Shown: positions 3,731-35,162 of the stretch, piece by piece | Position numbering within the stretch: the stretch's first letter is position 1 | How the letters are laid out: the number at the start of each line of letters is the position of its first letter | Virus record (IMG/VR): IMGVR_UViG_3300020411_001430 | Location: 1 to 35,162 of that record | Source: a virus | Length of the DNA stretch: 35,162 nucleotides | Direction: 5' to 3' (one strand) | Position numbers and translations under genes: made by a program | The notes under the pieces: generated by a model | The model's database searches: none | The model's input: the letters and a program-made list of their open reading frames with translations, nothing else | Told to the model about the DNA's origin: nothing

Positions 3731-3738
3731 TATTTATA
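3731..3738 (-). promoter_or_regulatory. T4-type late promoter box TATAAATA
   Basis: On the minus strand the exact T4 late-promoter consensus TATAAATA lies 19 bases before the ATG of the 72-aa gene, in the 31-base gap after the oxygenase gene. The expected transcription start would lie a few bases downstream, giving a very short leader. It could drive the 72-aa, gp21, gp22 and gp23 group. The match is exact, but the region is AT-rich and activity is inferred. Confidence 0.6.
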
Positions 3739-22502: not shown

Positions 22503-22510
22503 TATTTATA
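22503..22510 (-). promoter_or_regulatory. T4-type late promoter box TATAAATA ahead of the fibre operon
   Basis: An exact TATAAATA on the minus strand overlaps the stop region of the upstream glycosyltransferase gene and lies about 45 bases before the ATG of the 115-aa gene. The 46-base gap here is one of the few real gaps on this strand. It probably starts the late transcript for the 115-aa, 783-aa, 653-aa, 982-aa and 435-aa genes and perhaps the neck genes. Confidence 0.6.
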
Positions 22511-23210
22511 AGAAATATTTCTCCAAACCTTGATACATATCATTATGTTCTTGGCTAATTATACATATAGTTTTTCTTGGATCATGAGCTAAATAAAATA
22601 ATTTACCGTCTACCATAGTATCTTTACAATACATTGAGGGCGTTTTATCACTTTTCCATCTAAAATAAAAGTCATTGTCAAATTCAAGATATTTACATAA
22701 TGATAAATGATTATCCGAAATATATCTGTCTAAACCATAATATTTGACTATATTATAGTCTTTAGCCGCGATAAAACGCTCGTATACAAGCGAAACAGTC
22801 ACCGGATGTATACCAAGGACCGAGGAATTTATCTTAGCTTCAAAGGGTAAGAACATCGCGTCTTGTAACCTATTTATTCCAGCTAGATCGGGATTAATTG
22901 TCAATATCTTATTTTTCTCTATTCTTTGTAAAAGAGAATCAATATTATTTTGTATAACAATATCTAAATCAAAATATAAAGTAGGATTTTCCCATGGGAG
23001 GTTAAAAAGCTGCATCTTCCACCAATAAGATTCTAGATCTAAATCTAAATCTAATGGGTATCTCCATTTTTGAGATTTGTCTTCAGTTAAGCAATAAAAA
23101 GAAAATGGCAGAGAACAATTTTTCTCTACCATTCTATAAAGGCGATCTACTCGATCTGAATTATACTTTGTGCCGTATTTAAGACATACTATATTATAGT
23201 GGGGTTTCAA
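22506..23210 (-). CDS. GT-A type glycosyltransferase-like protein
   Basis: A nucleotide-sugar transferase is predicted. The N-terminal strand 'YNIVCLKYGTKYNSDRV' and 'CSLPFSFYCLTED' lead to a metal-binding DxD at D81-L82-D83 ('TLYFDLDIVIQNNIDSL'), the arrangement of small GT-A enzymes related to GT8. It has 234 residues. It belongs to the same family as the four short glycosyltransferases at 27-33 kb, which also start with a beta strand and 'G.KY'. The start is TTG at 23210, inside the end of the upstream gene (17-base overlap); the next Met would remove the first strand and is rejected. Acceptor and donor are unknown. Confidence 0.75.
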   Translation of the reverse strand: MKPHYNIVCLKYGTKYNSDRVDRLYRMVEKNCSLPFSFYCLTEDKSQKWRYPLDLDLDLESYWWKMQLFNLPWENPTLYFDLDIVIQNNIDSLLQRIEKNKILTINPDLAGINRLQDAMFLPFEAKINSSVLGIHPVTVSLVYERFIAAKDYNIVKYYGLDRYISDNHLSLCKYLEFDNDFYFRWKSDKTPSMYCKDTMVDGKLFYLAHDPRKTICIISQEHNDMYQGLEKYFL

Positions 23211-23874
23211 GGTCTTCTATAACCTCCTCCCAGAAGGCATTCGCTTGGGCAAAGACATATGCAATTGTAATTCTATAACAATCCGTATAAGCTGCATGAT
23301 AACATACTTTATTAGGTTCTTCATAAGGACCAAAGTATGTCATTTTACATTGCCAACCTGGAACATCATTTATTCGACAACGTTTTTGTTCATCTATATC
23401 CCAATAATCAAACCAACCTTCACCGGTTTCTGAATAAGTAAGTATTAAATTATACCCATGCGCATTAGCATTATTATGCCATGAAATGAAACCTCCAGGA
23501 TTATACGCAGCATTTAATGAATTATTTCTAGCAGAAATATATTGTAATAATTCTTGATTGACTTTAGCAGAAGCATTTCTTACTATATTTTTATTACCTG
23601 GTAAAACTTGAACACCTTCATCTACATGTTTTAAACTATCAAATCCTCTAAATTGTTTAGGGAATCCATCATGAGCTTTACCTTCATTAATTATTTTATG
23701 CATGTATTCATCGCCAACCCAATCTTCGGCTTTTAAATCCTGACCTTTAAGTGGCATTTCATTTTCTATATTTCGTTTACCGTTTTCGGCTATTCCAAAT
23801 AAAGTGTCTTTGTATTCATCAATAATCTTTAGGAATTCCGTATTATTTAATTTAACATCTCTTACTGGTATCAT
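23194..23874 (-). CDS. 2OG-Fe(II) oxygenase-like protein with an HxN site
   Basis: The core 'YNPGGFISWHNNANAHGYNL' followed by 'TYSETGEGWFDYWD', then 'VCYHAAYTDCYRITIAYVF', fits a double-stranded beta-helix oxygenase. Proximal His is H133, distal His H193, Arg R201. The expected Asp of H-x-D is Asn (H133-N134-N135), so iron binding could be altered or activity lost. From the ATG at 23874 the protein has 226 residues. That ATG overlaps the stop of the upstream glycosyltransferase (ATGA) and is preferred over one at 23916. It lies between two glycosyltransferase genes, suggesting hydroxylation linked to glycosylation. The family assignment is by motif only. Confidence 0.65.
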   Translation of the reverse strand: MIPVRDVKLNNTEFLKIIDEYKDTLFGIAENGKRNIENEMPLKGQDLKAEDWVGDEYMHKIINEGKAHDGFPKQFRGFDSLKHVDEGVQVLPGNKNIVRNASAKVNQELLQYISARNNSLNAAYNPGGFISWHNNANAHGYNLILTYSETGEGWFDYWDIDEQKRCRINDVPGWQCKMTYFGPYEEPNKVCYHAAYTDCYRITIAYVFAQANAFWEEVIEDLETPL

Positions 23875-24686
23875 ATTATAAAATCCTTTTTCATTTTTGC
23901 AGAATGGTGAAAGCATACTGGTCCATCACTATATGTCCTTCTTGGGTCTAGTTTTTTGTAATTCGATGGTGGATCCATTAAACCAAAAATGGCAAAATAA
24001 TTCCATCTAAAGTTATCATCGAAGAATTTCCATTTTAATGATTTATATTTAGGGCTGTGATATAATAACCACCACAGTGTTAATTGATCCCACTGTCTAA
24101 AATTACCTGTTCTAATACAATCAAATTCTTTTGGATTCCACGATCCACTTCGTTGTTTATGGAATAATGTAAACCAATCCATCATAAAATCCTTAACGAG
24201 AGGATTTTTAAAATTGTATAAACAAACTCCGCCACATGCTGATAAATGATCAGGAGCTCCTTTCCAACCATCTGCGAGATGATTTGGACCCCAGTCCCAC
24301 TCTACAAACGCAGGAGAGGCTTCTTTAGTTAATTCAGTAAATACTAAATCATTGTCTTCTAAATGATCGAAAACATTGAGAATATCTTTATGCGCGATTT
24401 CTATATCTGAATCCATATAAAACGTTTGATCATATGGAGATTTAGCCATACCCCACATTTTTTGTCTAGCTGTGTCTCCTGGAGTAACAATTACTTGATC
24501 AAAAGGTGCAAAGTATTTTTTATACTCTGGATCTTCAACCCAACTTTTTTGAGTGAATAGGGTAATTTTAGCATTTAGATCGTAATCTAAAATACCTTCT
24601 GCTAAATTTTGTGCTGCGGCAAGAAAGGCTTGTTTTTTAGTAGCAACTACTACGTAACCTTTACTTGGATCCTTTTTCTTTTGCAT
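23871..24686 (-). CDS. GT-A type glycosyltransferase-like protein
   Basis: This 271-residue protein has a strand 'GYVVVATKKQAFLAAAQNL', 'AKITLFTQKSWV', a DxD at D92-S93-D94 in 'QTFYMDSDIEIAHKDI', and a C-terminal His in 'GPVCFHHSAKMKKDFI' that could complete the metal site. These fit a nucleotide-diphospho-sugar transferase. It is not closely similar to the shorter glycosyltransferases in this window and seems to be a different subfamily. It overlaps the upstream 151-aa gene by 26 bases and the downstream oxygenase-like gene by ATGA. A role in modifying the flanking structural proteins is possible but unproven. Confidence 0.7.
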   Translation of the reverse strand: MQKKKDPSKGYVVVATKKQAFLAAAQNLAEGILDYDLNAKITLFTQKSWVEDPEYKKYFAPFDQVIVTPGDTARQKMWGMAKSPYDQTFYMDSDIEIAHKDILNVFDHLEDNDLVFTELTKEASPAFVEWDWGPNHLADGWKGAPDHLSACGGVCLYNFKNPLVKDFMMDWFTLFHKQRSGSWNPKEFDCIRTGNFRQWDQLTLWWLLYHSPKYKSLKWKFFDDNFRWNYFAIFGLMDPPSNYKKLDPRRTYSDGPVCFHHSAKMKKDFII

Positions 24687-25137: not shown

Positions 25138-26904
25138 TTAAGCAACTCGTACATATAGTACATAATCTTGTACACCGCCTAGTGTATAAAAATTTCGTGA
25201 GGGGCCCATATAATTAATATAATCCAATGATGTTCCTGAATAATTTCTTTCATATTCTTTTATATATTCCTGTATATATCCAGTAGCAAAAAAACTTTCA
25301 TAATTTGCTGAATATGAACCGGAAAAAATAGTTACAAACTCATTTTGATAATCCTCAGTAAAGCTTGTCGTATAGTTATCAATACGAAAATTCTCATATG
25401 CGCCAGTGCTTAGATAATAAATGTTACCTTCATAACGTGATGGTCCTACATATGTTGTTGCATAAGCAAGTTCTGGCCCAGTATAATAGAAAATAGGACC
25501 ACTTTGGTATTGCGCCGAACCCGGACCTTGGTAATACATAGGACCAGGGCCCTGGAATACACCTGCGAAATATGCTTGATTCCATCTTGTACTGCCAGAA
25601 TAATAAAATGGATATTGACCAACATAAAAATTCGTGAAAAAGGAATTACGACCGCTTCCTAAAGTATATGTACTTATTCCATCAGATCTATTAAATAGAC
25701 CTCTAATTCTTTGATATGCAGGCCATAAACCTACTCCTAAGTAGTTTCGTTGAAAATACAAGACCCATGGGGGACTTACTACCATATAAGTACCTTCACG
25801 TTGATAATAAGCAATATAGTTAGTTGTTCTATTTTCATAATTCGGATTTTGATCACCAGAAATATAATCTATTTGACCTGTAAATGCCTCTGCAGTAGTA
25901 TAAGTAACGTTAACTAATCGGCTAAACACACGTTCATAATCTTGTATGTAATTGGCAATATAGTTCCCTGTATATTCACTTGTATAAGGTTGTAGAAATT
26001 CCGATGTATAATATCCAGTAAAATACCGGATAAAAGTCTGTTCATAGCTTCCAGAATAGTATGACTTACCTATCCCTTTATGAAAGGCAGCAAGACTATC
26101 TGTAATTCTACCCTTTTCAACCCATGTGCCGGGATCGGTTGGTACCCCATCGCCTACTAATCTTAGCTGATAAGTCCCAATTTTAGTTTCTCGCATTCTT
26201 TCATGAAAACGAGTTTTCCATTTACTAGCCCACGTATCAGGTCCATGTTCTCTAATATCATATTTTGTAGAACCGCCTTGGCTGGAATCAAGTAAGAAAA
26301 CAGGATCAGCACCTGAGTCAACACTAGCTAATGGCATTCCTGTTCTTTGCCAAATTTTATATACATCTTCGGTTCCATTTTGAACATTGGTATCAGTTAA
26401 AAGGGTAAATCGTGCTGTCCAATCCCCAACTGGAGTAGGTGAAGTGTGTCCCACTCTATAAGTTCCGATACCTTCATTAAGAAGTGTTTCACCCAATATA
26501 CCATCAATAACATTATTGATATCTGAATCTTCCATTTGTTTTAGACCAGTACCAGATGGCCGGTCAATCCACATCATAGGGGCATATGTATTTTTATCAG
26601 AGTCTGCCATAACATCAGCAGAATCATAACGTTGATATAAAAATGCTTGCGTGACTTCTGATGGACCAACATATGTATCAATACCATCGCCTATATTTGC
26701 ACCAGTCCATGCATGATCTTTTGGACTACCAACAAGGTTATATTTATTACTTCCTATTTTAACTTTTGTTAATTTACCAGGTAAATTAGAATCTCCATTA
26801 GCCCAGTCCAATAAACAATTATGCCCGAACCATTGCACCTGTTCATCATCGGTCATTTCTCTTAAATTGGTCCCATCGACCTTGAGCATATTATGATTAG
26901 CCAT
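25138..26904 (-). CDS. Tyrosine-rich virion structural protein
   Basis: This 588-residue protein has two halves. Residues 1-280 look like a normal structural domain ('DDEQVQWFGHNCLLDWANGD', 'DHAWTGANIGDGIDTYVGPS', 'GDWTARFTLLTD') with 9 Tyr. Residues 281-588 hold 51 Tyr, plus many Phe, Gly, Ser and Asn, in short repeats such as 'GYYTSEF', 'YTGNYIANYIQDYERVF', 'FSGSYSANYESFFATGYIQE' and 'MYYQGPGSAQYQSGPIFYY'. It has no signal peptide or membrane span. The style matches large structural proteins of marine T4-like phages, probably an adhesive fibre or tip. It is flanked by glycosyltransferases on both sides. A GATAAATA box lies 38 bases upstream. Confidence 0.75.
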   Translation of the reverse strand: MANHNMLKVDGTNLREMTDDEQVQWFGHNCLLDWANGDSNLPGKLTKVKIGSNKYNLVGSPKDHAWTGANIGDGIDTYVGPSEVTQAFLYQRYDSADVMADSDKNTYAPMMWIDRPSGTGLKQMEDSDINNVIDGILGETLLNEGIGTYRVGHTSPTPVGDWTARFTLLTDTNVQNGTEDVYKIWQRTGMPLASVDSGADPVFLLDSSQGGSTKYDIREHGPDTWASKWKTRFHERMRETKIGTYQLRLVGDGVPTDPGTWVEKGRITDSLAAFHKGIGKSYYSGSYEQTFIRYFTGYYTSEFLQPYTSEYTGNYIANYIQDYERVFSRLVNVTYTTAEAFTGQIDYISGDQNPNYENRTTNYIAYYQREGTYMVVSPPWVLYFQRNYLGVGLWPAYQRIRGLFNRSDGISTYTLGSGRNSFFTNFYVGQYPFYYSGSTRWNQAYFAGVFQGPGPMYYQGPGSAQYQSGPIFYYTGPELAYATTYVGPSRYEGNIYYLSTGAYENFRIDNYTTSFTEDYQNEFVTIFSGSYSANYESFFATGYIQEYIKEYERNYSGTSLDYINYMGPSRNFYTLGGVQDYVLYVRVA

Positions 26905-26934: not shown

Positions 26935-27606
26935 TCAAGTGTATTTATCAGGTTTATTATGTGCATGTGTATAATGAATTAATTTAATATCTGGATGAAA
27001 TTCACCTAACCACAGATATTCATTATTAGATACTTTTTTATATTTTTGTGTTATCTCAAATTTCCAATCTTCGAATTGCCAATCAGTCATATTATAACTA
27101 TTAGACCATCTTGTTATCCAACTATGTGGTACTAATTTTAATTTTAATTTTTCATTTACACTGTCTTCTACAAAGTATTGTTCACCATTTACCGGGCCTT
27201 TAGTTGTCCCATTTTTGATATAATATTCTTGCCAATACAATGGATCTTTCATAAATTTATCGTAGATATATTTACAATCCTTTGGATAGTATTTAAAGAA
27301 TCCGCCATTAATATTATAATTAGTAGAGTCTTTCCACCAAGAAGGAATAGCTATAAATTCACCTTTCTTTATTGGATAATTAATTAACTCCCAGTAATTA
27401 TTTATTAACTGAATATCTATATCTATAACACATATAGGTTCGTCGATATCTAATGACATCGGATACATTTTATTCCATTGTAACTTAACCCTATCATCAA
27501 AAGGTTTTCTAATCCAATTAACCTCGTGGATTAGAAATTTAGAATCTATATAATCTTCATAATCAATTCCATATTTGTCGCCTATTCTAACACAAAATAT
27601 TTTCAT
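26935..27606 (-). CDS. GT-A type glycosyltransferase-like protein with GPVNGEQ motif
   Basis: This 223-residue predicted sugar transferase starts MKIFCVRIGDKYGIDYED. Its DxD is D62-I63-D64 in 'PICVIDIDIQLINNYWEL'. A motif 'YYIKNGTTKGPVNGEQYFVE' (128-147) is nearly identical to one in the glycosyltransferase at 30643-31341, so the two are paralogues. A C-terminal 'FHPDIKLIHYTHAH' provides a likely metal-binding His. It is the last gene of the right-hand chain and overlaps the upstream 462-aa gene by 20 bases. Substrates are unknown. Confidence 0.8.
   Translation of the reverse strand: MKIFCVRIGDKYGIDYEDYIDSKFLIHEVNWIRKPFDDRVKLQWNKMYPMSLDIDEPICVIDIDIQLINNYWELINYPIKKGEFIAIPSWWKDSTNYNINGGFFKYYPKDCKYIYDKFMKDPLYWQEYYIKNGTTKGPVNGEQYFVEDSVNEKLKLKLVPHSWITRWSNSYNMTDWQFEDWKFEITQKYKKVSNNEYLWLGEFHPDIKLIHYTHAHNKPDKYT
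26942..26949 (-). promoter_or_regulatory. Possible late promoter (GATAAATA) ahead of the tyrosine-rich gene
   Basis: The minus-strand TGATAAATAC is identical over ten bases to that upstream of the sheath gene. It is 38 bases before the ATG of the tyrosine-rich protein but lies within the last codons of the preceding glycosyltransferase, so it could be coding coincidence. Confidence 0.35.
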
Positions 27607-28975
27607 GAAATTTTCTTATATTTTCAAATGGTGTATCAGCTCTTAAATAATAATTATTACTATGTTTTAAACTTTCCTCAAGTTTATCTTTAGCATCAAT
27701 TATTTCTTTTACTGTATAATATAGCAAAGTATAATTATACACGTATATGTTACTTGCATTAAAAAATACATTTTTCTCTGTTACTTCGGTAATTATTTTA
27801 TCGTAATTTGCATTTAATAAATCCATTGTCCAAAATTCTATATCACAATATTGCTTCACATTTTCTACATATTTTCTACATGTTTCATGAGACTCTTTCA
27901 TATAATCTTCATAAGATATACAAGGATCAATATTTTCTTTTTTGTTTTCTTTAATTAATATTTTTAATTCATCATATGTAGGATTTAATTCTATAATCTG
28001 TTTTTTTACATTTACAATTTTATCATTAAAATCATAAAAAATTATTTTTTCTGGGTAACTTCCTGTCAAAGAGGTCTTTAATGAACATGCTATTTTTTCA
28101 CCTATATATCCCGAACATGGAGTAAATATAATATGAGGCGTCCACAATCTAGGTATTTTCTCAAAATAGAAATCCTCATTATTCTGATAATAGTATCTAG
28201 TTTCTTTAAAGTTACAATTTCTTTTTAAGGGATTAGAATAATAACTACCAGGTTGATCATTTGGAATGGCTTCCCACCATTTTTTATTATTTACTATATT
28301 ATCCCATAACATATCTTGGTATTCTTTATTGTGATATGAATATCCCTTTTTACCTCGCTCTATTTCTGTAAAATTATATATTTTCGGTAAACCCTTTGGA
28401 ATAATCCATGAAGGCGTATAATCATCATGAAAATTATCTTCTGCTCTTTCATATTCTTTAAAATCTTTGAAGATATCTGGACATTTTAATTCCTGCCATT
28501 TGTTTAAGTTTAATAATATATGTTCAGGGTGTATAAAGGCTGCTTTATTGGGATGCGCAATAATATGACCTTTCATATATTCATTGCTCTTTATAAAACT
28601 ATAAAAATCCATAACAGAATGACACTCAATACCTTCAACTTTAGCTCCTGTATGAAATACCATACCCGCTTGACAAATCATAACATGGGTGCAAGGCCTT
28701 ATCTTCCGATTTTTTAATTCCTTTATAACTTCCATAACTTCGCTCTGCAAGCAAAGTTTTACTTCACCTTTAGAAGTAACTTTTCTTTCTCCTATTTTTT
28801 CTATTTGCATTCTTGTTAATTGAGCCCAAGTCATTTGAGTCTGGCGTTCAACTGCGAAGTCCCAATTAAGTTTATCGGGATAAGATACAATAAAACCTAC
28901 AGATCCAATACCAATTGGTATTCTCTGTTCTATAAATTTTTTAAATTCATGAAAATTATCGAAAGAAGATTTCAT
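27587..28975 (-). CDS. Unrecognised two-part protein; possible methyltransferase-like C-terminal half
   Basis: No family is recognised with confidence in this 462-residue protein. The N-terminal half (about 1-200) contains 'THVMICQAGMVFHTG' (96-110) and 'GHIIAHPNKAAFIHPEHILL' (136-155), ending in 'NLNKW', a pattern somewhat like glycosyltransferase acceptor regions. The C-terminal half (about 275-462) has 'HIIFTPCSGYIGEKIACSLK' (281-300), 'KIIFYDFNDKIVNVKKQIIE' (310-329) and 'FFNASNIYVYNYTLLYYTVK', which suggest a Rossmann fold with an acidic D315, possibly SAM-binding. It overlaps neighbours by 20 bases on both sides, so it is part of the glycan chain. A fused or bifunctional enzyme is one possibility. 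Confidence 0.7.
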   Translation of the reverse strand: MKSSFDNFHEFKKFIEQRIPIGIGSVGFIVSYPDKLNWDFAVERQTQMTWAQLTRMQIEKIGERKVTSKGEVKLCLQSEVMEVIKELKNRKIRPCTHVMICQAGMVFHTGAKVEGIECHSVMDFYSFIKSNEYMKGHIIAHPNKAAFIHPEHILLNLNKWQELKCPDIFKDFKEYERAEDNFHDDYTPSWIIPKGLPKIYNFTEIERGKKGYSYHNKEYQDMLWDNIVNNKKWWEAIPNDQPGSYYSNPLKRNCNFKETRYYYQNNEDFYFEKIPRLWTPHIIFTPCSGYIGEKIACSLKTSLTGSYPEKIIFYDFNDKIVNVKKQIIELNPTYDELKILIKENKKENIDPCISYEDYMKESHETCRKYVENVKQYCDIEFWTMDLLNANYDKIITEVTEKNVFFNASNIYVYNYTLLYYTVKEIIDAKDKLEESLKHSNNYYLRADTPFENIRKFHENILC

Positions 28976-29660
28976 TTATCACATTACTTCCATATTGTTT
29001 AATTAAAGATTTCTTGGCTAGATCTAAGTAATCACCATGACCATGAATTATAAAATGAAACCGATTTTCATTTGAGTTATTAATTACTTCATGATCTACT
29101 CCATTATCAAACCAAAATCCAGTACAAGGTTTAAATGGTAATATATCTCCATTATCTACACGTCTAAAATCACATCCAATGGGCTGTGTAAACGCTAGGT
29201 TTATTGCAGACCAAATAAATCTCTTTTGGCCTTTGTCCTCTCGTTCCTTAAAAGAATCATTATGTGGAGGAATATGCGCACCAGGTTCTAATAACATAAA
29301 TCTACACCTAGCATATTCTTTGTGGGGAAAATCTAGAAGCCAACGTTTAGTTTCCGGTGCTAGTTCTTGGATTTCAGACCAACCCCATTCTATATCTTCC
29401 CATTCTAACCCATAATCGCCATTTGGACCTGTATATCTCCAAGCATATTTAATATCTTGGCCTTTGGGGACAAACCCATGTAATGAAGAAGATGCCCATC
29501 CCTGAGTGTCTCTATGTTTAACAAAATACCCTTCCTCGTATACTTGCTGGGCTTCTGAAATGCACTCTTCTGGTATATCGATATCTATTTTTAAATACCA
29601 TATATCATTATTACGGGCCCATTCTGCTATTTTATCATAATCATTCATTGACCATCTCAT
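28956..29660 (-). CDS. Aspartyl/asparaginyl beta-hydroxylase-like 2OG oxygenase
   Basis: A protein or small-molecule hydroxylase of the Asp/Asn beta-hydroxylase type is predicted (234 aa). The core is well formed: 'RCRFMLLEPGAHIPPHNDSF' with H133-N-D135, 'AINLAFTQPIGCDFRR', 'GDILPFKPCTGFWFDNGVDH' with H190, and R200 in 'NSNENRFHFIIHGHG'. Unlike the oxygenase-like protein near 23.5 kb, it keeps the full H-x-D...H set. The ATG at 29660 gives a 20-base overlap with the upstream gene; an ATG at 29648 is a second option. The target could be a virion protein later glycosylated by the neighbouring transferases; that is inference. Confidence 0.82.
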   Translation of the reverse strand: MRWSMNDYDKIAEWARNNDIWYLKIDIDIPEECISEAQQVYEEGYFVKHRDTQGWASSSLHGFVPKGQDIKYAWRYTGPNGDYGLEWEDIEWGWSEIQELAPETKRWLLDFPHKEYARCRFMLLEPGAHIPPHNDSFKEREDKGQKRFIWSAINLAFTQPIGCDFRRVDNGDILPFKPCTGFWFDNGVDHEVINNSNENRFHFIIHGHGDYLDLAKKSLIKQYGSNVINEIFFR

Positions 29661-30027
29661 TTTCGAATTTCATTATGTGTTTTGTTTTCTGCCTTTTTAA
29701 ACCTGATAATGAATATAATTCTACTCCTTTTCTATTCATATATTCTCCTTCATAAAATTCTATAAAAGGAAATATAGGCTCTAATTTTAAATTATCTATT
29801 ATATCTGGAAAACGATAATTTTGAATTCGTATATTATAATAAAAATCCCATGTGTGTTTATAATCATATATGACTGTATGTTCATAACTTGAAATTACTA
29901 TCCCTTTTTTAAAAGTTAGTGTTGCTATTCTAGCAAAGTCCCCACATTCTAAATCTTTTACTTCATGTCGATGCATAAACAATATATCTTTAATCTTAAA
30001 AAGATCTTTTAATTCATGTTCATACAT
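29641..30027 (-). CDS. Unrecognised small protein (128 aa) in the glycan chain
   Basis: The protein is rich in aromatic and charged residues and starts MYEHELKDLFKIKDILFMHR. It has beta-like stretches 'FARIATLTFKKGIVISSYEH' and 'WDFYYNIRIQNYRFPDII', and no signal peptide or membrane span. The ATG at 30027 follows a strong AAAGGAG site by eight bases; an upstream in-frame TTG at 30033 is too close to that site. It overlaps the upstream glycosyltransferase by 19 bases and the downstream hydroxylase by 20. No function can be assigned. Confidence 0.65.
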   Translation of the reverse strand: MYEHELKDLFKIKDILFMHRHEVKDLECGDFARIATLTFKKGIVISSYEHTVIYDYKHTWDFYYNIRIQNYRFPDIIDNLKLEPIFPFIEFYEGEYMNRKGVELYSLSGLKRQKTKHIMKFENEMVNE

Positions 30028-30656
30028 TTCCAATGCTCCTTTACAATTTTATGGTCAAGACAATCATGTATTTCAGGTTCTCCGTGAAATAAAGCAACAC
30101 TGCAGTTAGGATTAAATTCAAAGTTTGAATTTTTATATGAGTATATTAAATCTTCTTTTTCATATGTTTTATATTGATGTTCATGGTGTAAATATCTATC
30201 ATCACCTTTGTATTTAAAATCATAATATTCAGGATCTTTTAAAAAGTGTTTTAATATATGGCGGCTGTCATTCCAAGACATTATAGATGAATTAGTATAA
30301 GATGTGCCTATATCAGGACGGCCTTCTATATACTTTGCAGCCGCTCGTTTCTTCCAAAAACCATTTATCATATGAAATTCATCTCGTAATAAATGATCTA
30401 TAGGCCCATGAATAATAAGATCAATATCAAAATATAAACATTTTCCTACATTTTCAAATACTAAAAGTTTATTCCACCACGTACGAAGATTGTGTTTAAC
30501 AGGAATTGCAAAATCATATTGATCAACATTATCAGTGTAAACATTAAATGTATGTGGTAAAGATAGATATTTTTCTACTGCATATTTTAATTTATACACA
30601 TATTGAGGATCATACTTAGATCCTACATTAACACAAAATACTTTAACTTCCTGCAT
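30009..30656 (-). CDS. GT-A type glycosyltransferase-like protein
   Basis: This 215-residue predicted sugar transferase starts MQEVKVFCVNVGSKYDPQYV. It has 'LSLPHTFNVYTDN' and a DxD at D77-I78-D79 in 'KCLYFDIDLIIHGPIDHLL'. A C-terminal 'CSVALFHGEPEIHDC' gives a candidate metal-binding His. The layout matches the glycosyltransferases at 22506, 26935, 30643 and 32113, and the arrangement resembles GT8-like enzymes. It overlaps its neighbours by 14 and 19 bases. Confidence 0.8.
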   Translation of the reverse strand: MQEVKVFCVNVGSKYDPQYVYKLKYAVEKYLSLPHTFNVYTDNVDQYDFAIPVKHNLRTWWNKLLVFENVGKCLYFDIDLIIHGPIDHLLRDEFHMINGFWKKRAAAKYIEGRPDIGTSYTNSSIMSWNDSRHILKHFLKDPEYYDFKYKGDDRYLHHEHQYKTYEKEDLIYSYKNSNFEFNPNCSVALFHGEPEIHDCLDHKIVKEHWKCMNMN

Positions 30657-31341
30657 AGTGAACTATTCTTATATCTGGATGCCATTTCTTGTCATTAATA
30701 TATGTATTAGAAGTAAATTTTTTCCAATCCTTTTCTAATTTCATTTGCATAATATAATCATCTTTATGCCATTTTACAATATATTTTTCTGGGAAATATG
30801 AAAAATCAGATTTAAAATCATATAATGTTTTTTGTACAAAATGCTGTTCACCATTAACAGGACCTTTAGTAACACCGTTTTTAATAAAATATTCTTCCCA
30901 AAAAGGAATATCTTGTTCAAAGGTATCTACTACATATTGATGTTTTCCATTTTTAAATTTATATACTGTTCCGGATAATGCAAATGGTAATTTATCTTTA
31001 TCTTCTCTCCATCTCCACCACCAGCGATGAGAACCAACGAAGCCCTCGTAATCATCGAAAAGAAAATCTATATTACCAACAATGTCTAAATCAATATCCA
31101 TTACTATAATATCTTCTTCTTCAACAAAATCTTTTTTAAAGAAATCTAATTTAAACCACTGTAATTTTTTATCAGTAGTAGTAATTGGCCGAATTATAAT
31201 ATCTTTATTAAATTTAGACTTATGGGATGTATAGCATAAAAATTTAAATTTAACCGTTGCATTCTTCTTTAAATTAGTGTATAGTCTGTTAACATCTTTA
31301 ACACTGTATTTGGTTCCATCTAATACAGTACATATAATCAT
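30643..31341 (-). CDS. GT-A type glycosyltransferase-like protein, paralogue of the one at 26.9 kb
   Basis: This 232-residue protein starts MIICTVLDGTKYSVKDVNRL. Its acidic metal site is 'IIVMDIDLDIVGNIDFLF' (D82/D84/D86). The segment 'YFIKNGVTKGPVNGEQHFVQ' (151-170) is shared with the glycosyltransferase at 26935-27606. The C-terminus 'WHPDIRIVHYAGS' parallels 'FHPDIKLIHYTHAH' there. The likely donor site is conserved between the two copies while the middles differ, as expected for paralogues with different acceptors. It starts with an ATGA overlap on the methyltransferase gene. Confidence 0.82.
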   Translation of the reverse strand: MIICTVLDGTKYSVKDVNRLYTNLKKNATVKFKFLCYTSHKSKFNKDIIIRPITTTDKKLQWFKLDFFKKDFVEEEDIIVMDIDLDIVGNIDFLFDDYEGFVGSHRWWWRWREDKDKLPFALSGTVYKFKNGKHQYVVDTFEQDIPFWEEYFIKNGVTKGPVNGEQHFVQKTLYDFKSDFSYFPEKYIVKWHKDDYIMQMKLEKDWKKFTSNTYINDKKWHPDIRIVHYAGS

Positions 31342-32144
31342 TTTATCTCATACTTTTGAAGTGTTTCTGACCAAACCATTCTACGACCTTCGGTATCAAA
31401 CCAATCTGCTTTATCTCTTTTACCTAATACCATAAATCTATTATAAAAATCTTTGCCCCCAGCTGCTGCTAATTCTATAGCTCCCATGTAATAAATTCTT
31501 GTTATATCAGCTTGTGTAGATAATTCTACTGCATCTTTTACACAACTAACGTGCTCTCTTATATTATATAAGTTATTAGATTGTAATACATATAATACTT
31601 GTGGATCATTGGCACACCTAACTTGTTTCATATGATACATATGCTCACAGCTAGTGTTAATCATTATATGAGTATTATATGTAGCCCAATTTCTAAAATT
31701 AACATCATCATGAGTCCATTTTAATTCTACCTTTGTATTATACATATCAGGATAAAATTGTAAAAATTTCCGGCTTATATCCAACGCATCTTGGTCCATA
31801 TCAATCATTTCAATAGTTTTAATTCCAGGAAAATTGCTTATAAGCATAGGGACTAGAATATTTCCATACCAACTACCTATTATAGTAACTTTCTCACAAA
31901 GCTGATGCTCTTCTTTATGTTCTAATACTTCTTTTAAATGTTCGACTAGCCAAGCCTTACAAGTAATCTGATTAGATAAAAAACTTTCTACGAAATCCTT
32001 TACTTTATGAGGATAACTTTTTAATATAACTCTATTCATTATATCGCCGAATAGCCCTAGATCATAATCTAATACTACAGTACCTTCATACATATCTTTA
32101 TTTCGTTTTGTCTTACGTTTTATTTCTGCCATGTGCACTTCCAT
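31338..32144 (-). CDS. SAM-dependent methyltransferase-like protein
   Basis: A class I methyltransferase fold is suggested by motif I 'KVTIIGSWYGNILVPMLISN' (85-104), an acidic strand end 'KTIEMIDMDQDALDIS' with D115/D117, and 'HIMINTSCEHM' further on (numbering from the ATG at 32144; 268 aa). A second ATG four codons in (32132) has GGAAG a few bases upstream and would give a 20-base overlap with the upstream gene; either start is possible. It lies between two glycosyltransferase genes, so sugar or glycan O-methylation is plausible. The substrate could also be a protein or small molecule. Confidence 0.75.
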   Translation of the reverse strand: MEVHMAEIKRKTKRNKDMYEGTVVLDYDLGLFGDIMNRVILKSYPHKVKDFVESFLSNQITCKAWLVEHLKEVLEHKEEHQLCEKVTIIGSWYGNILVPMLISNFPGIKTIEMIDMDQDALDISRKFLQFYPDMYNTKVELKWTHDDVNFRNWATYNTHIMINTSCEHMYHMKQVRCANDPQVLYVLQSNNLYNIREHVSCVKDAVELSTQADITRIYYMGAIELAAAGGKDFYNRFMVLGKRDKADWFDTEGRRMVWSETLQKYEIK

Positions 32145-32712
32145 TGTTTGATATAATAATAGCCTTTTCTTTCATCATAGGCTGAAATTCTTTTGTTTTA
32201 TGTTGAATATAATAGCTAGGAAAAAAGTCATACCAATCTTTATGTTTATGATAAAACCATTTATCGGTGCCTTCAAAAAGCATTTCAAGCTTTGGTTTCC
32301 ATTTTACTAATTCTTCATATATATGATTGCAGTATTTATTATTAAATATAAAGACCCCAGAATTTACATTACAACTAATATATGTTGATTTATCACGCTT
32401 CATTTTGTAATTATCAAACCAATGAACGTGAGTTAACATAACCTTATCCCTAGATCCTTTTTCTTTATAATACTGTATTAGTTTATTAATGTCACCCTTT
32501 ATTTCTACATCTAAGTCTAGAAATAAACATTTACCTAAGTTTAAACGACTATCAAATAATGTCATTTTTTTCCAGGTGTGTTTATACGACATATCAATAG
32601 GTATAGTTTTTATACCTTTTATTTTTCTATCACTGAATACTATATCGACAGGTAACTTACGAACATCTTCTTCGCTATATTTGTCACCCCATAATGCTGT
32701 TATAATTTTCAT
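32113..32712 (-). CDS. GT-A type glycosyltransferase-like protein
   Basis: This 199-residue protein is the shortest of the group. It starts MKIITALWGDKYSEEDVRKL; DxD at D66-L67-D68 in 'GKCLFLDLDVEIKGDINKLI'. 'CNVNSGVFIFNN' (about 114-125) resembles the acceptor-site region of GT8-like enzymes, and 'IIISNNGSAHG' near the end holds a candidate metal-binding His. It overlaps the dehydrogenase gene by ATGA and the methyltransferase gene by about 20-32 bases. Confidence 0.8.
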   Translation of the reverse strand: MKIITALWGDKYSEEDVRKLPVDIVFSDRKIKGIKTIPIDMSYKHTWKKMTLFDSRLNLGKCLFLDLDVEIKGDINKLIQYYKEKGSRDKVMLTHVHWFDNYKMKRDKSTYISCNVNSGVFIFNNKYCNHIYEELVKWKPKLEMLFEGTDKWFYHKHKDWYDFFPSYYIQHKTKEFQPMMKEKAIIISNNGSAHGRNKT

Positions 32713-33770
32713 TTATTATTACCATAATTGTTCCAAGGATCAAAGTTATATACATTGTCTTTAGGTTTATCATCTGGATGTACTAAGACATAAACATGTG
32801 GATTATCATTTACTATCCAACCACCTAGTTCTTTTATATAGAATTGAACTAATAAGCTATAAGATCCATCTTCTATTTTAACTCCAGGTTTGAAAGCATT
32901 ACTACTAAACATAATTTTATTACCATGTTTAAGAATTTCACATGCCATATTTTTAGCTTGCTTTTCTCTTGTACTTATGATAGCATCAAATAAATCATAT
33001 CCTAAATTTAAATCCTTTGCTAATTTACGTAGAGCTATATTATCTCTAGGATGACATGAACCACCATCACCCATTCCTGCTTTCATATATTTGGGAGACA
33101 TTATTCTTTGAGTTGAATTAGCTAATGCATCTGTTACAACATCAACGTTCATATTACCTAATTTAACTGCAACGTCTTGGATCATATTAACTATGGCTAA
33201 TTTAGTTGATATAAAAGTATTATAAAATATTTTAATAGATTCACATTCTTCATAAGTCCCTATAATATATCGATCGCAATTGCAAAGGTCTCTATAAAAA
33301 TTTTCGAGGATATTGCAGTATCTTGTTTTACCACCTATCATTATCATCTCAGGATTTCTTATATCCCATTTAACAGATCCCATGGCTATTAAATATGGAT
33401 TATACACTAAATTAGTTTTTTTGGCAACGGGTAATAAATGTTTTCTTATTGTACCAGGTAATACGGTAGAAATCAACACTAAAATTTGTGTTTTATTCAT
33501 ATACTTGTTAGCTTCATTTATAACTTCTTTGACTATCGTATAATCAAAGTCTTTAGGTTCCAAATGGCTACAAGGATGTTTACCATCATATTGTGGATCA
33601 TGGGGAGTGGGAACTGCGACAAATACTATATCTGTATTAGATACACATTCTTTAATAGAAGATACTCCATCACCATTAATATCATAACCCTTAACATTAT
33701 GACCTTCTTCTATTAAAACTTCACTTGTAGGTTTACCTAATTTACCTAATCCAATAATTCCTATATTCAT
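32709..33770 (-). CDS. UDP-glucose/GDP-mannose dehydrogenase family enzyme
   Basis: A predicted NAD-dependent sugar-nucleotide dehydrogenase, which oxidises C6 of a UDP- or GDP-sugar to a uronic acid. Numbering from the ATG at 33770 (353 aa): NAD site G7-L-G9-K-L-G12, D30 at the end of the second strand, 'LISTVLPGT', 'VYNPYLIAMGSV', active-site Lys K180 in 'ECESIKIFYNTF', and catalytic C239 in 'GGSCHPRDNIAL'. All key residues are kept. It is shorter than usual (about 390-450), mainly at the C-terminus. An upstream TTG (33776) would add two residues; the ATG, overlapping the TAA of the previous gene, is preferred. It probably supplies the activated sugar for the neighbouring transferases. Confidence 0.88.
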   Translation of the reverse strand: MNIGIIGLGKLGKPTSEVLIEEGHNVKGYDINGDGVSSIKECVSNTDIVFVAVPTPHDPQYDGKHPCSHLEPKDFDYTIVKEVINEANKYMNKTQILVLISTVLPGTIRKHLLPVAKKTNLVYNPYLIAMGSVKWDIRNPEMIMIGGKTRYCNILENFYRDLCNCDRYIIGTYEECESIKIFYNTFISTKLAIVNMIQDVAVKLGNMNVDVVTDALANSTQRIMSPKYMKAGMGDGGSCHPRDNIALRKLAKDLNLGYDLFDAIISTREKQAKNMACEILKHGNKIMFSSNAFKPGVKIEDGSYSLLVQFYIKELGGWIVNDNPHVYVLVHPDDKPKDNVYNFDPWNNYGNNK

Positions 33771-35047
33771 TACCAACTTTCAAATGTATATTCTATATGT
33801 TTCATTAAAGACTTAGTATTTGCTATTTTTTCAAAATGATTTAAATTATATTGGATCTGATCAGCACTAAAAATTTCTTTAGGTTCTGAACATACTCTTT
33901 TTATTTCTTCTATAAAGCCTTCAATATATTTATCACCTCGATTTCGGTCTATACCGGCTCTATGTTCTTCAAATTCAAATTTAAAAATATTATTATATGG
34001 AATAAATCCCATTTCGCTAATTTGTTGATTTTGATGAGAACATCCTAAAATAATAAAAGGTAAACCGCATATAATAGGTTTATAAGTTTTTTCTGTATAA
34101 AACATAGTATTCCAATTACTTTCAAATACTATATTAAAATAACTTTCATGTATTTCTTGTGGACATTTTCTATCAGTTATATTATTTAAATTAATATTAT
34201 TATCGTCTGAATCAAATCTTTTTTCTATTTGTAATTCATCTTTATATTTTAAAAATGCATCGCGATATTTGTAGTTTTTATTGTATGTTTCTACGTTAAT
34301 TTCATGCGCCAGAATTTTTTGTAATTCATAACTTTGATACCTATTCACAGTAGAATAAAAACTATTATCTAGTAATCCTAAAGATTTTAAACCAGTCATT
34401 GTTTTTATTCTATGGATCTTTCTCACTTCACCTGCAAGAAGAGAAAATGTATATTTCTTTTTCCTTGACATCGGTTTCATATTAAAATCCTTTGTCAATG
34501 GATTATTTTTTAACCCATATGTTTCGAAAAGAAAAAAATCAGCATCTAATAATAAACGCTTATATTTTGGGTTTAATGCAAAATTATTACAATGTTTTGA
34601 CCAAGAGTTTTTATCATTTATTAATATTCTAAAGTAAGAATAGTCTATTAGTTCGTGACTATTCATCCAATCAATCATTTTATCAATATTAAATGGAACA
34701 CATTCTCTAGATCGATCTATGACAACTTTAACTTGATTATCATAACACCATAAGATATTTTCTTTTTGATGAAGTGCTGCTCCAGTAATTTGTTGGTATG
34801 TAAAGTCATCTATGTATGTAAAGTTATTAACTTCTCTGTCGGGTATACCATCAGCCGGAACTAAAAAGATATTAACATCATTAATATCTACTTTATCTTT
34901 TTTTATTGTTTTGATATGATATTCAATTCCATGGAGCTCAAACAATTCTAAAAAATAACTAATACAATTATAAGCTGGTATGTTTCCGAAAAAATGTTTA
35001 AACTTTCCAGGAGCTATCCAAAAGACATATTTACAATTGAACTTCAT
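33770..35047 (-). CDS. GT-B-like glycosyltransferase (probable)
   Basis: This 425-residue protein, from the ATG at 35047, starts MKFNCKYVFWIAPGKFKHFF. The strongest sign is near the C-terminus (about 300-348): 'IHESYFNIVFESNW', 'FYTEKTYKPIICGLPFIILG' and 'QISEMGF', a pattern common in the nucleotide-sugar-binding half of fucosyltransferase/exostosin-like enzymes (E-K-T-x-K-P-I). The N-terminal half is less conserved. A TTG at 35062 would extend it by five residues but the ATG has GAGAAG upstream. It overlaps the partial upstream gene by 17 bases and the dehydrogenase by one base. The sugar transferred is unknown. Confidence 0.65.
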   Translation of the reverse strand: MKFNCKYVFWIAPGKFKHFFGNIPAYNCISYFLELFELHGIEYHIKTIKKDKVDINDVNIFLVPADGIPDREVNNFTYIDDFTYQQITGAALHQKENILWCYDNQVKVVIDRSRECVPFNIDKMIDWMNSHELIDYSYFRILINDKNSWSKHCNNFALNPKYKRLLLDADFFLFETYGLKNNPLTKDFNMKPMSRKKKYTFSLLAGEVRKIHRIKTMTGLKSLGLLDNSFYSTVNRYQSYELQKILAHEINVETYNKNYKYRDAFLKYKDELQIEKRFDSDDNNINLNNITDRKCPQEIHESYFNIVFESNWNTMFYTEKTYKPIICGLPFIILGCSHQNQQISEMGFIPYNNIFKFEFEEHRAGIDRNRGDKYIEGFIEEIKRVCSEPKEIFSADQIQYNLNHFEKIANTKSLMKHIEYTFESW

Positions 35048-35162
35048 TATAATACTTCTCAAACTCAGGGAATTGATCTAATAGATATTTACCTCTTCTT
35101 TTATCTAATTTTTTTAGATATGTCATTCCTTCCATAAATCTACCATGATCTGCGTTAGGAGA
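35031..35162 (-). CDS. C-terminal end of a partial gene at the window edge
   Basis: The last 43 codons of a minus-strand gene run off the right edge. The visible protein includes 'NADHGRFMEGMTYLKKLDKR' and 'YLLDQFPEFEKYYNEVQL' before TAA. The pattern of a helix with L-D-x-x-R-G and then F-P-E-F resembles the tails of some radical-SAM-type phage proteins, but this is weak and no function is assigned. Its 17-base overlap with the next gene and shared strand show the glycan gene chain continues beyond the window. Confidence 0.55.
   Translation of the reverse strand, partial: SPNADHGRFMEGMTYLKKLDKRRGKYLLDQFPEFEKYYNEVQL

Follow-up and report, generated by a model that had tools for sequence, protein, structure and literature searches.

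Sugar-synthesis islands have been known in marine T4-like phages since at least 2010, and the ideas offered for them include change of the lipopolysaccharide (LPS), a virion coat and stuffer DNA. Pelagimyophages carry one type of such island, the host recognition cluster (HRC), which lies between baseplate/tail genes and a neck gene and is described as containing tail fibers, several GT8-type transferases, a UDP-glucose dehydrogenase and radical S-adenosylmethionine (SAM) cassettes (PMC7029224, mSystems 2020). Its authors read the HRC as a means of O-chain modification against superinfection, and the same paper lists an Asp/Asn β-hydroxylase as core to pelagimyophages. Cyanophages have asparaginyl hydroxylases and LPS clusters elsewhere in the genome (PMC3037559), and viral glucosylation of collagen is described in mimivirus (PMC9546862). 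Here we analyze a 35,162-bp phage fragment from IMG/VR (record IMGVR_UViG_3300020411_001430, hereafter the window), which contains a run of ten overlapping genes that an earlier note, made from the sequence alone, had taken for a complete glycan pathway. We find that this island is of the already known HRC type, that the run combines two modules, and that it contains a hydroxylase gene (HYD) and a partner gene (U462) whose pairing appears to be new.

Two modules make up the gene run

The window includes T4-like genes (sheath, gp15 and the terminase region), and its capsid protein is nearest to those of Phage C48C1 (65%), Pelagibacter phage HTVC008M (60%) and Methylophilales phage Melnitz (60%). 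Ten complete open reading frames (ORFs) follow one another end to end on the minus strand between 26935 and 35062, with overlaps of 4–32 bp at all nine junctions, as expected from the earlier description of a one-strand run without intergenic space. That description counted nine complete genes and one partial gene. The gene at 33770–35062 is complete, with an upstream stop closing its frame and an in-frame ATG at 35047, which brings the complete genes to ten; the partial gene does exist as a separate fragment at 35064–35162 (genes lacking a name are designated by their lower coordinate; Table 1). GC content is 28.4% in the run versus 34.8% in the rest of the window, and Shine-Dalgarno (SD)-like sites are found at 1 of 10 run genes versus 18 of 25 genes elsewhere, setting the run apart from the structural genes. 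Fibre-like and structural genes and then gp13–gp18 lie downstream, a layout matched in relatives, and the upstream boundary of the island falls outside the contig.

ORF calling and profile searches of fetched loci, deduplicated on the sequence of the glycosyltransferase GTa, yielded 93 distinct cassettes extending from a methyltransferase-like gene (MT) to GTa. Because the core gene order recurs in these cassettes, the run reflects more than chance. The cassette, which we call module 1, is widespread in IMG/VR and consists of the glycosyltransferase GTx, MT, an exchangeable middle and GTa, and the neck gene gp13 lies downstream of it. GTx immediately precedes MT in 79 of the 93 cassettes, MT immediately precedes HYD in 66 of 80 loci, and gp13 follows one gene after GTa in many loci, where the intervening gene is often GNAT-like. 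The middle is occupied by HYD and U462, a GT8-like protein, a nitroreductase-like protein, radical SAM proteins or PP-loop enzymes. In the window the core has HYD and U462 as its middle, with extra glycosyltransferases inserted, and comparison with related loci places the dehydrogenase, 33770, 32113 and 29641 outside it.

Module 2 comprises the dehydrogenase and 33770. Viral contigs contain 33 relatives of the dehydrogenase, about half of which have a 33770-like protein (23–33% identity) beside or near them in other surroundings. A single-query search of viral contigs with 33770 returned no relatives, divergent ones being found near other dehydrogenases, and both genes are absent from the other core-cassette loci. 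In another phage context (L236–L241), dehydrogenase, MT-like and HYD-like genes occur within 8 kb. Since module 2 is linked separately in other phages, and since neither 32113 nor 29641 is conserved in the cassette, we reject a single complete pathway: the run is a composite and not one inherited unit. The conserved linkage near fibre genes for which the earlier note suggested a search is nevertheless present: dozens of contigs from marine T4-like phages have GTx, MT, HYD, U462 and GTa together, flanked by tail/fibre genes and gp13; the opposing pattern of homologues scattered without linkage was looked for and is not seen for the core. Glycan assembly with hydroxylation and methylation likewise stands as a fair reading of the enzyme types.

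Several further features of related loci were observed. Two loci carrying the closest relatives of the window's GTa (L147 and L148, 68%) share the window's fibre genes but have neither HYD nor U462, a pattern suggesting that the pair is gained or lost by exchange. Upstream of GTx in L029, L040 and L069 lies a 440–454-residue carbamoyltransferase homologue (34% to that of the bacterial locus L221, E=2e-81), and a 270–290-residue protein also recurs upstream of the cassette in loci such as these.

HYD is a predicted hydroxylase and U462 represents an undescribed family

HYD matches PF05118 with 37.4 bits against a curated cut-off of 22.6. Residues H133, D135, H190 and R200 do not vary across 17 sequences, and the HxD...H...R pattern is retained in bacterial relatives. 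The Asp/Asn β-hydroxylase-like assignment made earlier is thus substantiated, and HYD is predicted to possess all the ligands for Fe and 2-oxoglutarate (2OG). The AlphaFold2 model (predicted local distance difference test score, pLDDT, 89) is nearest in the PDB to 7v4f, a nucleoside-antibiotic hydroxylase and the top match, 4p7x, a cis-4-proline hydroxylase, and AspH. Because these differing hydroxylases receive near-equal scores, the substrate class of HYD is not readable from structure. A tblastn search with the window's HYD against HTVC008M and Pelagibacter phage Mosig gave no match, the Asp_Arg_Hydrox protein of Mosig (L085) has only a sub-cut-off PF05118 match, and identity of HYD with the listed pelagimyophage core hydroxylase could not be shown.

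The AlphaFold2 model of U462 (mean pLDDT 83) displays a GT-A-like N-terminal half and a Rossmann methyltransferase-like C-terminal half. The N-terminal half matches LH3, B3GalT5 and glycogenin, and the C-terminal half NNMT and MePCE, all weakly; uncultured phage proteins include close structural relatives. H149, H152 and the N-x-HDDYTP motif are invariant, and HD[D/G/N]YTP occurs in nearly all bacterial relatives. Sequence searches of PDB, Pfam and PHROGs with U462 returned nothing useful and no described family was found; U462 is an undescribed family. The earlier note had listed 27587 and 29641 as two proteins of unknown function, of which the former is now identified as the hydroxylase partner and the latter remains without a family match.

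HYD and U462 are paired in phage cassettes

Among the 93 cassettes, 61 contain both HYD and U462 (a class whose size is qualified below), 28 neither, 4 U462 only and none HYD only; in loci fetched through GTa, 10 contain both, 27 neither and 2 U462 only. The order is HYD then U462 in all 61 cassettes with both. Two of the four U462-only cassettes have another PF05118 enzyme between MT and GTa, a third (L053) is an ORF-calling artefact in which an antisense ORF was chosen over the HYD gene in a locus fetched by HYD, and the fourth (L170/L171) has HYD downstream of GTa. L053 was counted as HYD-positive only in the family-association analysis of candidate substrate proteins. HYD and U462 distances are the best correlated of ten pairs tested (rho 0.54), by a modest difference. 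Outside these cassettes, HYD-like proteins occur without U462, for example directly before gp13 in L032–L035 and in L236–L241.

Viral contigs hold 94 relatives of HYD, 265 of U462 and 327 of GTa, and the pair is shared, in whole or in part, by hundreds of related phage contigs. Neither HYD nor U462 has a match in 50,697 deposited phage records, and MT and GTa have only distant matches in isolate phages, in Mosig.

Bacterial relatives include fusions in both orders

A scan of genome contigs gave three matches, namely a phage contig in a Flavobacteriales metagenome-assembled genome (MAG) and two Bacteriovoracia-type MAGs. The Flavobacteriales contig (L141, CAJWSQ010000087.1) contains MT, HYD, U462, GTa and gp13–gp15, which marks it as phage DNA. 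HYD and U462 are adjacent in a member of the Halobacteriovoraceae (L142) and fused as U462-HYD in one of the Bacteriovoracaceae (L143). U462 occurs in 5 of 129 genomes of the class and in 13 of 369 genomes of the phylum containing the Bacteriovoracaceae genome, and 12 of these 13 have HYD either fused to U462 or within the same cluster. HYD-U462 fusions are present in genomes G008, G009, G030, G201, G204 and G205 and at loci L217, L218, L219, L263 and L287, and the reverse fusion in G002 and at locus L216, while the two genes are neighbours in G001, G220, G228, G239 and G280 and adjacent or overlapping at loci L224, L283, L284, L285 and L286. No HYD was found on the 8.6-kb contig that carries U462 in G179. 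Several bacterial loci look chromosomal, as they lie on contigs of 200–900 kb.

Several of the bacterial clusters are embedded in stretches of radical SAM genes, the products of which match proteins of the phage cassettes. The two settings further have in common a carbamoyltransferase, a QueC-like PP-loop enzyme, a second 2OG oxygenase and MT, and phage and bacterial loci thus draw on a common tool set. Both in bacteria (L284, 12693–13683) and in phage (L057, 8050–8938), two neighbouring genes separately encode a radical SAM protein and the SPASM-like part belonging to it. Taken together, the co-occurrence of HYD and U462, the kept gene order and the bacterial fusions strongly imply that the two proteins function together as a single two-component enzyme.

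Other genes of the run and the fibre region

The four GT-A glycosyltransferases named by the earlier note hold up, since three match phrog_1962, 26935 is a paralogue of 30643 (32% identity), and a D-x-D motif is present in all four (DID, DID, DID and DLD in 26935, 30009, 30643 and 32113, respectively). GTa (26935) has no database match of its own; its DID (residues 62–64) and GPVNGEQ motifs are invariant in 20 sequences. MT forms a coherent family with class-I motifs in its alignment, consistent with the SAM methyltransferase proposed before, while its Pfam match falls just short of the cut-off. For the dehydrogenase, the expected UDP-sugar enzyme with intact catalytic residues is confirmed by its Pfam and PHROG matches, and inspection identifies the GGSC cysteine and the Lys/Asn motif; the Pfam matches cover the N-terminal and central domains, and the C-terminal UDP-binding domain was not recognised. 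The GT-B-like label given to 33770 has a motif as its sole basis, with no library match. The 130-residue protein 29641 has no homologue in related loci and no Pfam or PHROG match.

Table 1 Features of the window, with coordinates and supporting matches.
Feature	Coordinates	Strand	Support
Window, IMG/VR phage fragment	35,162 bp		main genes all on the minus strand
TATAAATA late promoter	22503..22510	-	51 bp upstream of 22112 (fibre-region gene); downstream of cassette
Second small set	22506..24686	-	GT-A 23871 (DSD); 2OG-oxygenase-like 23194; GTx-type glycosyltransferase 22506 (phrog_1962)
GTa, small GT-A glycosyltransferase, last gene of conserved cassette	26935..27606	-	DID 62-64; GPVNGEQ motif
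U462, two-domain 462-residue HYD partner	27587..28975	-	GT-A-like N-terminal, methyltransferase-like C-terminal; invariant N-x-HDDYTP
HYD, predicted Fe(II)/2OG hydroxylase, Asp/Asn β-hydroxylase family	28956..29660	-	PF05118 E=3e-9
130-residue protein, function not assigned, outside conserved cassette	29641..30033	-	no Pfam/PHROG match
GT-A glycosyltransferase, GTx type	30009..30656	-	phrog_1962 E=2e-9; YFDID
GT-A glycosyltransferase, GTa paralogue	30643..31341	-	phrog_1962 E=1e-7; 32% identity to 26935
MT, class-I SAM methyltransferase-like, conserved core	31338..32144	-	Spermine_synth E=1e-4, just below cut-off
GT-A glycosyltransferase, GT8-like	32113..32712	-	phrog_1962 E=7e-8; Glyco_transf_8 E=1e-4; FLDLD
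UDP-sugar 6-dehydrogenase, module 2	32709..33776	-	PF03721/PF00984 over cut-off; phrog_9148 E=2e-83
33770, putative transferase, module 2	33770..35062	-	likely start ATG 35047; no library match
Gene fragment cut by contig end, upstream of run	35064..35162	-	33 codons, open frame SPNADHGRF...LLDQFPE

The T4-type late promoter TATAAATA occurs twice in the window, at 3731–3738 and 22503–22510, on the coding (minus) strand and 26–51 bp upstream of a gene, against 10.6 occurrences expected by chance. Among the 93 related loci, 52 of 54 gp13 genes have it upstream, and its occurrences number 194 on the coding strand versus 28 on the opposite strand. It is very probably a real late promoter, conserved at gp13 and generally avoided elsewhere. 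None of the 93 loci has it before the first gene of the cassette, and it precedes HYD in 0 of 71, U462 in 0 of 66 and GTa in 1 of 95 cases. The cassette therefore has no late promoter of its own, and read-through or another promoter class is possible. An argument for virion modification from late expression, tested through these sites, found no support.

Beside the fibre genes lies a second small set, whose gene order is identical in L190; its oxygenase-like member, 23194, was called by motif only (HxN). The minus-strand gene at 25138–26904 encodes 588 residues, of which 10% are Tyr; its product has numerous Y-x-G/S-x-Y/F repeats in the second half and no family match. That this tyrosine-rich, fibre-like protein might serve as a glycogenin-type target is only an idea.

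Discussion

We favor, at a probability of roughly 55%, the reading that the locus is a composite surface-glycan tailoring island of the HRC type in a T4-like marine phage, in which HYD and U462 form a two-component oxidative tailoring unit. HYD would place a hydroxyl on a sugar or acceptor using Fe(II), O2 and 2OG, and U462 would act on the same substrate through its GT-A-like domain, with an HDDYTP site replacing DxD, and its methyltransferase-like domain. GTx and GTa would add sugars, MT would cap, and the product would decorate a surface-exposed target. A host envelope glycan is a plausible target at slightly under even odds, a virion fibre or tail protein is possible, and something else is unlikely.

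A number of observations weigh against this reading. Contig counts are not independent events, and the class containing both genes is inflated because HYD or U462 served as the query in fetching most loci. HYD matches, at similar scores, PF05118 structures of enzymes whose substrates are proteins, free amino acids and a nucleoside antibiotic, and the PDB matches of U462 are weak and partial-chain, with template modeling (TM) scores of about 0.2. All 35 U462 sequences lack DxD, and any close variant of it, at the position where it would be expected, so that U462 may not be an active glycosyltransferase. Finally, the radical SAM runs that house several bacterial pairs are not plain polysaccharide operons, which makes a small-molecule or peptide product possible.

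The best-surviving alternative places the whole island in host-surface remodeling, in which the infected cell has its O-chain or some other glycan of its envelope altered and superinfection is blocked. This was proposed for the same region in pelagimyophages with GT8 enzymes and a UDP-glucose dehydrogenase (PMC7029224), and a dehydrogenase with soluble GT8-type enzymes suits envelope glycans. Lack of a late promoter at the cassette in all 93 loci would permit expression before virion assembly, and HYD and U462 are found in bacteria, which have no virion. The constant position of the cassette between tail/fibre and neck genes is harder to reconcile with remodeling, and none of the cassette genes was recognised as coding for an initiating lipid-linked transferase, a flippase or a polymerase. 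We regard this account as tentative.

That same fixed site beside fibre genes and gp13 suits virion glycosylation, in which tail, fibre or neck proteins would be hydroxylated and then glycosylated by a logic like that of LH3 on collagen hydroxylysine. A hydroxylase and a GT-A-like protein are paired and fused, the best U462 matches include LH3 and those of HYD include AspH, both protein modifiers, and mimivirus offers a precedent in collagen glucosylation (PMC9546862). We nonetheless consider it rather doubtful: no cassette-specific substrate protein emerged, the HYD-associated families being head-neck genes explained by contig extent and lineage, no late promoter lies upstream of the cassette, and the bacterial homologues have no fibres. 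Less likely still is a broader version, in which HYD-U462 would be a new oxidative glycosylation system, two-component or fused and without relation to lysyl hydroxylases, that hydroxylates and then glycosylates a protein residue, in phage virion proteins and in a Bacteriovoracia-type surface protein or peptide.

A modification pathway for a small molecule, peptide or nucleic acid, and not for a glycan, would account for the radical SAM, QueC-like, carbamoyltransferase and GNAT-like genes in the same loci and for the nucleoside-antibiotic hydroxylase as top structural match of HYD; it is improbable given that DxD glycosyltransferases frame the cassettes and that HYD belongs to PF05118 and not to the TET/JBP-type DNA hydroxylase family. 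Unrelated cargo gathered in a hypervariable island fits the mosaic of 32113, 29641, module 2 and many varying middle genes, the low GC and the few SD sites, but is very unlikely overall and disfavoured for HYD and U462, given that no cassette has HYD without U462, that the catalytic residues of HYD are kept and that bacterial fusions occur in both orders.

Tailoring of a surface glycan by HYD and U462 remains our preferred account. The island can now be described as a definite frame around a middle that is exchanged, and within it HYD together with U462 is a testable unit, which the bacterial fusion makes expressible and assayable as a single protein. Should this pair prove to hydroxylate and alter a target at the surface, that would go some way toward explaining why phage 2OG oxygenases stand beside glycosyltransferases.

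Comparison with known systems

The LPS clusters of cyanophages P-SSM2, S-SSM7 and S-SM2 are likewise sugar-synthesis clusters in marine T4-like phages, but they lie near hli03/phoH and not in the neck region, and the consulted part of that account does not describe HYD-U462 (PMC3037559). LH3 and mimivirus L230 resemble the pair in joining, covalently or genetically, a 2OG hydroxylase to a GT-A-fold protein. They differ in that HYD belongs to PF05118 and is not a prolyl/lysyl hydroxylase, with LH3 absent from its top structural matches, and in that U462 lacks DxD, has an extra methyltransferase-like domain and shares only about 6% sequence identity; the likeness is best taken as analogy and not relationship. 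With the PF05118 family, including AspH and cis-4-proline hydroxylase, HYD shares the Pfam match, the fold and the predicted Fe- and 2OG-binding residues. Human AspH lacks the carboxylate ligand, whereas HYD has the HxD...H...R set.

The earlier note placed the novelty in the gene combination as a whole; such islands are, however, published for pelagimyophages, and the unusual part is the HYD-U462 pair, whose members that note had listed apart. Whereas the GTx-MT-middle-GTa frame, the pair and its bacterial fusions do not figure in the consulted part of the HRC description, the island in the window is like the HRC in its place in the genome, its fibres, its GT8-type transferases and its UDP-sugar dehydrogenase (PMC7029224).

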